Origin: Desulfobacterales bacterium
GTDB taxonomy: Bacteria > Desulfobacterota > Desulfobacteria > Desulfobacterales > JANQIE01
Direction of reading: 5' to 3'
Length of the DNA: 43,019 bases
Assembly: GCA_028282295.1 (NCBI GenBank)
Contig: JANQIE010000188.1
Coordinates: 1-43,019 of the forward strand
Position 1 is the first letter of the stretch; each line of letters begins with the position of its first letter. A program made the translations under genes and the position numbers. Positions 25,156 through 37,800 of the stretch are shown here, one piece after another. The notes under the pieces are model-generated. The model saw only the letters and a list, made by a program, of their open reading frames with translations. It had not been told where the DNA came from and ran no database searches.

Positions 25156-25321
25156 AGTGCCCATCCGGAAATAGCAGATTTTGGTTCCCGGCAAGGCCCG
25201 AGCATTTTTAAAACCGCAGGCACCGCGGGCTACTGCCGCAAGAACGTGAATGGCCCCGCCATTATTTTAAAAATGCGAAAACGCCAGCCTGAGCCAAAAG
25301 ATGCTGCTTCCGGATGGGCAC
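25156..25321. repeat. Compound palindromic repeat element (copy A)
   Basis: The left end reads AGTGCCCATCCGGAAATAGC (25156-25175), continuing to about 25190. The right end contains the same module inverted, TTCCGGATGGGCAC (25308-25321). The arms are alignable inward for about 50 bases and include GCATTTTTAAAA (25202-25213) against TTTTAAAAATGC (25264-25276). The whole is a 166-base imperfect inverted repeat with no coding potential, like a MITE or a pair of opposed short repeats. Related copies are at 28914 and 36826. Confidence 0.7.
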
Positions 25322-25414
25322 CGGCTAACCGCGGTAACGGTATGGCGATGCGGATGGTAACAAAAGGTACCACTATTTGCCGAAAAAGAACCAAATGGCA
25401 GAAAAACATTTGTC

Positions 25415-28885: not shown

Positions 28886-28913
28886 CGGCACCCGGATTTT
28901 CCGGCCCTTAGCG

Positions 28914-28958
28914 AGTGCCCATCCGGAAATGGTAGATTTTGGTTTCCGGATGGACACT
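28914..28958. repeat. Palindromic repeat (copy B) inside the riboswitch leader
   Basis: AGTGCCCATCCGGAAA (28914-28929) and TTTCCGGATGGACACT (28943-28958) form a hairpin with one mismatch and a 13-base loop containing TAGATTTTGG. The pairing extends outward through CTTAGCG/CTAGCGAG-like sequence. It lies between the cobalamin aptamer and its terminator. It is the same family as 25156-25321 and 36826-36864. Confidence 0.75.
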
Positions 28959-29064
28959 AGCGAGAATTTTCCCAAACAGCCTGGTCTGCGAACGCGCCAA
29001 GCGGTCCTGGAATCCTCTCGGCATTGCATTTAAGTCGCTCCGCAAAAACGCAACACGCACACCA

Positions 29065-35099: not shown

Positions 35100-36737
35100 T
35101 TAACTATTCAGAATCTTGCGCGCCACCTCGTCGTTCACGTCGGACACATGCATGATGCCGGTCTCGCGCTCGGTTTCGCGATTGGCGGCAAACAGGTCGC
35201 TACGGGTAATCCGGTTCAGCGTAAACTTGCGCGCACCGGCCATCAACTGCTGCAAGCCGCACGCGAGTTTGTCGGCCAGGGTCCAGAAAGCCAAGGCGCC
35301 ATAGGGGATATGTTTCATCTCGTCGGCACCGACTTTCTTTTGAACATCAAAATAACCGGCGAAGATTTCTTCGGCGGTCGCGCCCATGCTGCGAACCGAT
35401 TTGGGCAATTCACGCCAGTTGCCGTTAACCGCCTCCTTGTTCTCCGGTTTTAGAACCCCTTCAATATTAGCTCCCAGAAAACCGGGGATCATCAGGGAGC
35501 GCCCCATGCAGACCAGCTTGGTGTAAGGTGCGCCAAGCGCCAGCGCTTTGAAAATACTGTCTTCCAGAGCAAAACCGCCGGCAAAGGACATGTCGACCAC
35601 CTGTTGTCCCTTGGCTGCCAGCATGCCGGCATACTCATACGCCTTGGCGTGCAGGAAGATCGACGGCACGCCCCAGCTCTGCATCATGTTCCACGGGCTC
35701 ATGCCGGTGCCGCCGCCGGAACCGTCGATTGTAAGCAGGTCCAGATCGGCGTCGGAAGCAAACTTGATTGCCATGGCCAGTTCTTCCATGCCGTAGGAAC
35801 CGGTCTTGAGCGAGATGCGCTTAAAACCAAGGCTGCGCAGATAGTCCACGGTTTTCATGAAATCCTCGCGCACGTCGTCGACGCTGGCCAGATTTGTGGC
35901 CCCCAGGCGACTGTGCCGCGCAAACGATTTAATGGCGCCACTGTCAAACGCCGCCCGGACTTCGGGCAGCTCAGGATTCGGATCAACCACATACCCTCTT
36001 TTCCTCAGGAACATGGCATAATCGATACTGGTCACCTGGATTTCACCGCCGATGTCCTTGGCGCCCTGCCCCCACTTCAATTCGATGATGACCTTGTCGC
36101 CGTACTTCTGCGCCACGTATTCGGCCACACCGTTGCGCGTATCTTCGACATTGAGCTGGACAAACACCCCGCCGTAGCCGTCATAGTAGCGCAGGTAGGT
36201 GTCGATGCGCCGGTCAAGCTCCGGCGCCTTGCTGATTTTACCCCGGTTGATCTCCGACGCCAAATCGACCCCCACCACGTTCTCACCGATGACAATCGGC
36301 ACCCCGACCAGGGAGCAACCGGCGGCAAAGGCATCCCAGTATTTGGCCGCAATAAACGTGGACCCCAGGGCGCCGGTCATGATCGGCACCCGCGCTCTGG
36401 TTTTAACCTTGCGGCCGAATTGCGTGGAAATATCGACGTTGGGAAAGATGCAGTCGTCCGGGTCGTTGGAAAGATCGCCGTTCAACCCGTATGCGCCGTA
36501 AGCGTACCCCTGGATGCGCAGGGCGTTGTACGAAACCCCTACATGCGTGGTATTGTTGGCGCCCGCCGTTACCGTACCGAAATCGCGCGGGTAAAGCAGT
36601 TTACGCCCCTGCAGGCCGGCCAACCAGGTTTCACACCTGCCTTCACAATCCGCCCGGCACAACGTACACAGACTCGACTCAGCCGGATTGCCCCGGTTAA
36701 CGGTTCCAAGAGCATCATTCTTTTTTTCGAAACGCAT
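35100..36737 (-). CDS. FMN-binding glutamate-synthase-domain protein
   Basis: A 545-residue protein made of one glutamate-synthase-type FMN barrel. The core motifs include VIIELKWGQGAKDIGGEIQ and LLTIDGSGGGTGMSPWNMM, the phosphate- and FMN-binding part. It lacks the N-terminal glutaminase of the GOGAT large subunit. The N-terminus has C24-x2-C27-x3-C31-x3-C35, which may hold an iron-sulfur cluster. ATG 36737 follows GAGGAGG. The reaction is unknown: related single-domain proteins are called archaeal-type glutamate synthase. The leader (36801-36969) looks like an ANTAR-controlled terminator, and the ANTAR gene is upstream, so control by nitrogen or redox state is probable. Confidence 0.87.
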   Translation of the reverse strand: MRFEKKNDALGTVNRGNPAESSLCTLCRADCEGRCETWLAGLQGRKLLYPRDFGTVTAGANNTTHVGVSYNALRIQGYAYGAYGLNGDLSNDPDDCIFPNVDISTQFGRKVKTRARVPIMTGALGSTFIAAKYWDAFAAGCSLVGVPIVIGENVVGVDLASEINRGKISKAPELDRRIDTYLRYYDGYGGVFVQLNVEDTRNGVAEYVAQKYGDKVIIELKWGQGAKDIGGEIQVTSIDYAMFLRKRGYVVDPNPELPEVRAAFDSGAIKSFARHSRLGATNLASVDDVREDFMKTVDYLRSLGFKRISLKTGSYGMEELAMAIKFASDADLDLLTIDGSGGGTGMSPWNMMQSWGVPSIFLHAKAYEYAGMLAAKGQQVVDMSFAGGFALEDSIFKALALGAPYTKLVCMGRSLMIPGFLGANIEGVLKPENKEAVNGNWRELPKSVRSMGATAEEIFAGYFDVQKKVGADEMKHIPYGALAFWTLADKLACGLQQLMAGARKFTLNRITRSDLFAANRETERETGIMHVSDVNDEVARKILNS

Positions 36738-36800
36738 AACATCCTCCTCATAGCTTGAAAATTAAAAAGTGGGACTCAGAAGTTTCCGGTTCCAGAACGC

Positions 36801-36885
36801 AAAAAGGCGTCCGCTCTTTCTGGTTAGTGCCCATCCGGAAATAGTAGATTTCCGGATGGGCACTAGTTAAAAGAGCCCAGACGCC
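36801..36885 (-). terminator. Leader terminator of the glutamate-synthase-like gene
   Basis: On the minus strand GGCGTC-TGG-GCTCTTT pairs with AAAGAGC-G-GACGCC (arms 36870-36885 and 36806-36819), followed by UUUUU (36801-36805). The terminal loop contains the palindromic repeat 36826-36864. It lies 64 bases before the start codon and directly after two hexaloop hairpins, so it is an attenuator rather than the end of a gene. Confidence 0.82.
36826..36864. repeat. Palindromic repeat (copy C) in the loop of a terminator
   Basis: AGTGCCCATCCGGAAAT (36826-36842) and ATTTCCGGATGGGCACT (36848-36864) are exact 17-base inverted arms around AGTAG. It sits in the loop of the attenuator stem at 36806-36885, prolonging it into one very long hairpin. 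It is the most perfect of the three copies of this family in the window. Confidence 0.85.
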
Positions 36886-36904
36886 TTTGTCTCAGTCAGA
36901 TCAT

Positions 36905-36969
36905 CCCGTACCACGTTGTACGGGGGTATTACACAAAATTACCCGTAGCTATCGCCGTTGATAAGCGGG
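36905..36969 (-). promoter_or_regulatory. Tandem hexaloop hairpins, candidate ANTAR-protein target RNA
   Basis: RNA order on the minus strand. Hairpin 1 (36942-36969) has the stem TATC/GATA with further CCCG/CGGG pairing and the six-base loop AACGGC. A 17-base linker follows. Hairpin 2 (36905-36924) is CCCGTAC-AACGTG-GTACGGG with a perfect seven-base stem. Both loops are six bases and have A at position 1 and G at position 4, as known for ANTAR targets. The terminator follows. The adjacent upstream gene encodes a GAF-ANTAR protein. Confidence 0.75.
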
Positions 36970-37074
36970 CCGTGCATTAAAAAAACTCACCTGAAATTAG
37001 TTTAACTTGATTATTTTGTCAAACTTAAAAAAATAAAGTTCTTCCAAGCAAATGCCCGCAAAACACCGGCCGCC

Positions 37075-37800
37075 TCAATCTTTGGCCAGCTCCTCGGAAA
37101 GTAAAACCGCCTCAGCCACCTGCAGCATCGATTTGCGCCGGTCCATACTGCGCTTCTGAAGCCAGCGATAGGCCTCGTCTCCCTTCATTTTACGGCGGTG
37201 CATCAAAACTTCCTTGGCCCGCTCCAACAGTTTGCGTGTTTCCAGTTCTTCCTGGATAATTTTGGTTTTGACCATCAACTCGGTATTCAAAATGGCCACC
37301 GCCGCCTGGTTGGCGATGGCGGTCAGCAAGTTGACATCGGTCCTGGAAAAACTGTGCGGCTTGGAAGTAAAGCAATTCAACACCCCGATCACCCGCTCGT
37401 CCTTGAGTTTGAGCGGCACCCCAATCATGGAAACCAGCCCGAGCCGTTTGGCCATCTCCTTTTCCTTGAAGCGGCGGTTGCGCAGCACATTCTTGATCGT
37501 CACCGGCCGTTTGGTGGTCACCACTTGTCCGACTACCCCTTCGTCGGTATTGAGCGTGCGATCCTTTACATAGTCCGGGGCAATGGCCTGGGTGGCTTTG
37601 AGCCGGATCTGAGCCGGCGACGTCGAATCGTCCACCAGCCACAGCGAACAAATGGCCACACCGGTCACCTTGGCGGTCACCAGGACGATCAGTTTGAGCA
37701 AGTCTTCCAGAAACAGATCCGACGTGATGGCATGGCTGATATCGGTGAGCGCCTTAATATAATGATCGTAAGTCTGCGGCTCAATCTTTTCAATGGTCAT
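37075..37800 (-). CDS. GAF-ANTAR antitermination regulator
   Basis: A 241-residue cytoplasmic RNA-binding regulator. A GAF domain (about residues 25-172) has the usual core (TAKVTGVAICSLWLVD, TLNTDEGVVGQV, MIGVPLKLKDERVIGVLNCF). A coiled linker and a C-terminal ANTAR three-helix domain (about 183-236) follow, with ELETRKLLERAKEVLMHRRKM and the signature EAYRWLQKRSMDRRKSM. ANTAR proteins bind tandem hexaloop RNA hairpins and prevent termination. Its target is probably the leader at 36801-36969, immediately downstream. The GAF ligand is unknown (small molecule, redox or nitrogen signal). ATG 37800 has a weak GGGAAA site. It is divergent from sbcD. Confidence 0.93.
   Translation of the reverse strand: MTIEKIEPQTYDHYIKALTDISHAITSDLFLEDLLKLIVLVTAKVTGVAICSLWLVDDSTSPAQIRLKATQAIAPDYVKDRTLNTDEGVVGQVVTTKRPVTIKNVLRNRRFKEKEMAKRLGLVSMIGVPLKLKDERVIGVLNCFTSKPHSFSRTDVNLLTAIANQAAVAILNTELMVKTKIIQEELETRKLLERAKEVLMHRRKMKGDEAYRWLQKRSMDRRKSMLQVAEAVLLSEELAKD

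Follow-up and report, generated by a model that had tools for sequence, protein, structure and literature searches.

The 39-bp palindrome in the leader of a glutamate synthase gene of a Desulfobacterales bacterium appears, from its sequence, to be a collapsed copy of a high-copy foldback MITE of about 144 or 167 bp with ends AGTGYCCATCCGGAAATAG. We consider it very probable that this non-autonomous element inserted into the loop of an ANTAR terminator and then lost its middle, with the attenuator logic conserved.

The palindrome and the leader that carries it

The palindrome was found in a 43,019-nucleotide stretch of DNA (the window). The terminator that holds it has a GAF-ANTAR gene on one side and a gene for FMN-type glutamate synthase on the other, all on the minus strand:

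35100-36737, minus strand: FMN-type glutamate synthase, 545 aa (PF01645)
36801-36805, minus strand: terminator U tract (A's on the forward strand; five U's in the RNA)
36806-36819, minus-strand RNA: terminator 3' arm, AAAGAGC..GACGCC
36822-36825, unstranded: left target-site copy GGTT, matching the right copy at three of four bases
36826-36864, unstranded: collapsed MITE, 39 bp, with 17-bp perfect inverted arms and a 5-nt loop
36865-36868, unstranded: right target-site copy AGTT
36870-36885, minus-strand RNA: terminator 5' arm, GGCGTC..GCTCTTT
36879-36892, minus strand: P2 hexaloop hairpin AGAC-AAAGGC-GTCT, with A1 and G4 in its loop
36905-36924, minus strand: P1 hexaloop hairpin CCCGTAC-AACGTG-GTACGGG
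37075-37800, minus strand: GAF-ANTAR antiterminator protein, 241 aa

The original prediction, made from the letters of the window, described a perfect palindrome with 17-bp arms inside the loop of an attenuator. The palindrome is real: AGTGCCCATCCGGAAAT-AGTAG-ATTTCCGGATGGGCACT occupies 36826-36864 between the terminator arms on the minus strand, and it has 18 pairs when the bordering T/A is counted in. The arms themselves consist of the segments GGCGTC (36806-36811), GCTCTTT (36813-36819), AAAGAGC (36870-36876), and GACGCC (36880-36885). P2 overlaps the 5' arm of the terminator, and the minus-strand RNA folds with a free energy of -75.9 kcal/mol (z = -7.67, 200 shuffles). An Rfam scan of 36600-37100 returned only sub-threshold eukaryotic matches (microRNAs and rox1), which we took for chance, as any long hairpin may give.

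ANTAR proteins bind hairpins with six-base loops whose first base is A and whose fourth is G, and ANTAR leaders have two such hairpins, the second lying over a terminator, according to the relevant parts of two earlier papers (PMC8934654, PMC3369931). The window leader reads as an ANTAR dual-hexaloop attenuator of this kind, with two A1/G4 hexaloops and P2 overlapping an intrinsic terminator, for which protein binding and readthrough are predicted. The label 'attenuator' was thus correct, in that an ANTAR-type leader has the palindrome-bearing hairpin as its terminator. For Desulfotomaculum reducens, a section of one of these papers (PMC3369931) already reports ANTAR targets before glutamate synthase genes, so the switch itself is of a known kind. 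The likeness to the described leaders extends to P1 and P2 hexaloops with A1/G4 and to P2 lying over the terminator stem (PMC3369931, PMC8934654, in the portions cited), whereas the terminator loop here holds a mobile-element hairpin. The regulator also differs, being a GAF-ANTAR protein, an architecture termed uncharacterised in the cited part of the 2012 paper (PMC3369931). The GAF-ANTAR gene gave the sole ANTAR match in the genome.

A foldback MITE family in the host genome

As had been claimed, the palindrome arms recur in the window, at two further places:

25156-25322, unstranded: MITE long-form copy, 167 bp
28914-28958, unstranded: collapsed copy, 45 bp, with an AGCG/AGCG duplication (28910-28913 and 28959-28962)

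The 5.46-Mb genome has 871 matches (422 + 449) to the arm 16-mer AGTGCCCATCCGGAAA at no more than two mismatches, compared with 0 for a reversed-pattern control. The exact palindrome, with a loop of 0-30 nt allowed, was found once in the whole genome; the precise 39-bp form is therefore unique, though its arms are genome-wide. Copies were sampled from 120 stretches plus the window, together 1,756,055 bases or 32.2% of the genome; the first 40 stretches were picked on contigs known to carry the arm, and for the others either the contig number or that same list guided the choice. The sample holds 430 arms at no more than three mismatches, which make up 118 complete copies, with 194 arms left single. 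Sixty of the complete copies are 143-147 bp long, 32 are 162-169 bp, and 19 are 22-91 bp. The 144-bp consensus of 43 copies forms a foldback over nearly its full length (-92.5 kcal/mol). Both flanks fell inside a crude ORF proxy in 14 of 118 copies, and this proxy covers 86% of the DNA, which indicates that the copies are mainly intergenic.

Identical 4-bp flanks were found in 46 of 109 copies (flank permutation mean 5.48, maximum 13 in 2000 trials), and flanks matching at three or more of four bases in 81 of 109 (permuted mean 31, maximum 43). These counts, like the hairpin counts below, leave out nine of the 118 copies that lie too close to the end of a contig or region, and a nested 239-bp copy in stretch L091 was removed by hand from two counts, one of duplications and one of end pairs. 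Duplication lengths of 2, 3, and 5-8 bp gave no excess comparable to that of 4 bp in the same sampled copies. The favoured 4-mers at the target are AGCT, AACT, and AATT, flanked by TT/AA. The result was replicated with a related element in genome G037, from another family, where 8 of 18 copies have a 4-bp duplication (mean 1.28, maximum 6). The 4-bp target-site duplication argues that the repeat spread by transposition and that it is a MITE, whose terminal inverted repeats, short non-coding body, and target-site duplication are all present. One copy, at L091:15162-15400, is apparently nested in the centre of another. Many contigs end within a copy (L082:83, L092:85, L095:82, L120:83, and others), and assembly probably broke there because of the repeat.

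A search for the parent transposon covered four Pfam families of the DDE type as well as the third of the genome in the sample, and found none. PF01609 gave one match, with no such ends nearby and only 3-4-mismatch noise on that contig, and PF13701, PF13586, and PF13751 had no matches in the genome. Pairs of ends 250-6000 bp apart numbered four in each of two counts of the sample, each pair with at least one weak end; at L150:16404-16989 an end pair is 570 bp apart. The viral contigs contained no exact 19-mer end, and the plasmids no match to the MITE consensus.

As a high-copy intergenic palindrome, the repeat might also be read as a REP/REPIN element mobilised by a Y1 (RAYT) transposase, and the genome does have three Y1_Tnp fragments. 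However, all three match only in part and lie on a single contig, two of them have an internal stop, and no intact Y1 REP-associated transposase was found in the genome. The copies moreover carry a 4-bp target duplication, which to our knowledge is not expected of Y1 (HUH) transposition. We judge a REP/REPIN origin very unlikely and retain the MITE assignment.

Insertion, probable collapse, and the terminator

We compared the leaders of 80 relatives of the glutamate synthase gene, mostly from Desulfobacterota, seeking the arm core in at most 350 nt upstream. P2 with an overlapping terminator is present in 56 of the 80. P1 was counted in 63 relatives, after 17 of the 80 with short upstream DNA or at the greatest distance were left out: the P2 core occurs in 53 of the 63, and P1 accompanies it in 48 of those 53, compared with about 3.1 of 54 (the 53 relatives with P2 plus the window) expected from shuffled upstream DNA. 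The palindrome arm core occurs in none of the 80 leaders, three of which have less than 120 nt of upstream DNA. A 'module' flag in one relative, L028, proved to be a chance GCCCATCC outside the terminator. With the element present, the P2 loop lies 83 nt from the U tract. When the element and one duplication copy are subtracted, this span becomes 40 nt (-20.6 kcal/mol), compared with a median of 35 nt (range 30-76) in the relatives. The empty site is deduced from relatives of the same order, since the genomes drawn include none of the same family.

The nesting of the palindrome exactly between the terminator arms is what an ancestral piece of the attenuator would look like. Its absence from all 80 relatives, the fit of the element-free terminator to their span, and the identity of its arms with a genome-wide repeat leave that explanation a negligible probability, and these results bear out the proposal that the palindrome is an insertion.

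The left 23 bases of the window copy match the left end of the element (...TAGTAGATTT), and the others its right end (...ATTTCCGG...). The middle was probably lost through a deletion at a shared ATTT microhomology, and we infer that the collapse came after the insertion and not before it. The junctions of the 19 collapsed copies (22-91 bp) differ, and among the 18 with flanks, the duplication is exact in four and matches at three or more of four bases in 13. Alternatively, a collapsed hairpin of about 40 bp could itself be the moving unit. This would explain the exact duplications on collapsed copies of 45 bp (AGCG/AGCG) and 38 bp (CGCT/CGCT), and in a second repeat family of the genome, 23 of 45 pairs form a sharp class at 36-42 bp. 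But the short copies of the first family vary in length and junction, unlike a single mobile form, and the genome contains just one exact 39-bp form. A mobile short form is thus unlikely, and deletion in place is preferred.

The original prediction further suggested that the repeat targets, or is tolerated only in, terminator loops. Strong-hairpin insertions numbered two among the 109 copies in the 32% sample, against 1.45 expected from composition- and 4-mer-matched intergenic sites of the same genome; at lower hairpin thresholds the counts were three against 2.53 and then five against 5.29. The two copies that do occupy a hairpin loop are that of the window and L141:15698-15842, and the hairpin at L141 is itself a repeat with an AATT loop, a favoured 4-mer. 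With two observed against 1.45 expected, neither targeting of nor restriction to terminator loops is supported; we hold loop targeting to be highly improbable and conclude that site choice reflects the 4-bp target rather than the terminator. A first test with shuffled flank pairs had given two insertions at a score of at least 14 against 0.15 expected, but this excess was gone with matched sites; real intergenic sites replaced that null because shuffling the pairs destroys natural hairpins. The copy at L141:15698-15842, of the first family, lies in the loop of a short second-family copy, with the duplication AATT. A terminator-loop preference in genome G008, suspected from copy-specific outer arms, was traced to variable element ends, since pairing stops at the element border.

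The insert had also been expected to leave the terminator able to fold, and this was upheld: the predicted pair probability of the base stem is 0.988 with the hairpin and 0.990 without it. Scrambled inserts of the same length gave 0.955 on average, with 5% of them below 0.8. As scrambled inserts leave the base stem mostly intact, a palindrome is unnecessary for survival of the terminator, and the idea that it was needed as a rescue is weakened. In these folding models the insert hardly affects termination at equilibrium, and its palindromic nature helps only a little.

The course of events may be put as follows. A non-autonomous foldback MITE (about 144-167 bp, ends AGTGYCCATCCGGAAATAG, 4-bp duplication) would have entered the ANTAR terminator loop before the glutamate synthase gene, and an internal deletion at the ATTT microhomology would have stripped its middle to leave the 39-bp perfect hairpin. 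By analogy with the ANTAR literature, the terminator overlapping P2 should form when the ANTAR protein is inactive, and P1 and P2 would be held and transcription go on when it is active. The insert would fold on itself and so preserve the base stem of the terminator. RNA polymerase would make about 43 more bases between the terminator arms before closure, which may slightly extend the time for the ANTAR protein to bind P2. Against this course stand the inexact duplication of the window copy (three of four bases, GGTT/AGTT) and the search for a parent transposon, which found none.

Related repeats and implications

Among 291 genomes from the order, four contain the exact 19-mer end, this one with 287 occurrences and the three others with one each; the 16-mer at no more than one mismatch is present in 14 of 58 genomes, with 111 occurrences in G037. 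Full-length relatives of the element were found in G019, G008, G171, and G021, mostly at 74-85% identity. In G008, which belongs to the same order, 24 single-copy loci share a common core, yet their 19-bp ends are copy-specific and complementary within each copy:

L182, L241-L243, L256-L276: G008 copies with copy-specific ends

Across these 24 loci, 414 of 456 end positions pair (permuted mean 335.7, maximum 367 in 5000 permutations), many positions use at least three pair types, with changes on both sides, and beyond the element border pairing falls to 6-12 of 24 per position. This test left out five loci (the tandem arrays L237-L240 and the double copy L267) and the split copy L253. With the tandem copies of G008 counted in, agreement is at 13.97 of 19 positions between arms of one copy and at 10.19 of 19 between those of different copies; the same tendency is slight in the window's genome (16.90 versus 16.55, permutation maximum 16.83). 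A 4-bp duplication was found in none of 38 G008 copies, a count that kept the arrays and L267 and left out L253. The loci L237, L238, L239, and L240 of G008 are short tandem core arrays with a period of about 141-143 bp where regular, in which inner ends are often unpaired and the outermost ends can pair.

A second palindromic repeat family, with ends GGGCTCGCGC / GGGCTCGCGCAAAAATAATT, has 265 arms in the sample. Its short form (36-42 bp) is accompanied by a long form near 178 bp, and although its ends are unrelated to those of the first family, it has the same asymmetric 36-bp centre. Its sites include:

window 10283; L085:5540-5579; L082:4020-4185; L247; L248

Template switching from arm to arm would explain the covarying ends of G008, and so would selection on the fold. 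Tentatively, Desulfobacterota may have a modular superfamily of foldback repeats, with ends conserved by shape and not by sequence, of which the palindrome would be one; we give this reading less than an even chance. If it is true, a mobilising enzyme or an RNA or DNA function would read the folded form, or else arm-to-arm template switching would keep rewriting one arm from the other, and the window hairpin would be a collapsed unit of a shape-read system.

The family resembles the prokaryotic MITEs RUP, BOX, Chunjie, QMITE, and ERIC in being short and non-coding with inverted ends and a target duplication, and in being mainly intergenic, with strong stem-loop transcripts and long and truncated copies together, as far as these are described in the cited excerpt (PMC10969869). 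It differs in its very high copy number, and here the search for a parent transposase found none. No named MITE family in the literature searched matched the ends AGTGYCCATCCGGAAATAG with a 4-bp duplication. Searches of the open-licence literature for the end sequence, for MITEs and terminators, and for MITEs in sulfate reducers gave no paper with a title or opening of the abstract that described this element, and the letters of the end sequence returned only titles unrelated to bacterial repeats. The pneumococcal BOX and SPRITE repeats likewise enter cis-regulatory RNA, and one BOX element forms a composite RNA structure with two T-box riboswitches (PMC3049150, in the part cited); the element here differs in lying in a terminator loop with the stem intact and in not being terminator-like itself. 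It has been suggested, in a passage of the MITE review, that MITEs could conceivably form riboswitches or terminators (PMC10969869). Together with the BOX/T-box composite, this suggestion means that the kind of event was already anticipated. We conclude that the repeat family appears to be new but of a known kind, a MITE, and that the ANTAR switch is likewise of a known kind.

The locus is a clear natural example: a mobile element that folds on itself has entered a regulatory terminator at its loop and left it unbroken. As the ancestral form of the leader can be read from dozens of relatives, it lends itself to a simple test of loop length against ANTAR antitermination. A family with hundreds of copies here and covarying ends in a relative also provides material on how arm complementarity arises, by mutation (template switching) or by selection.
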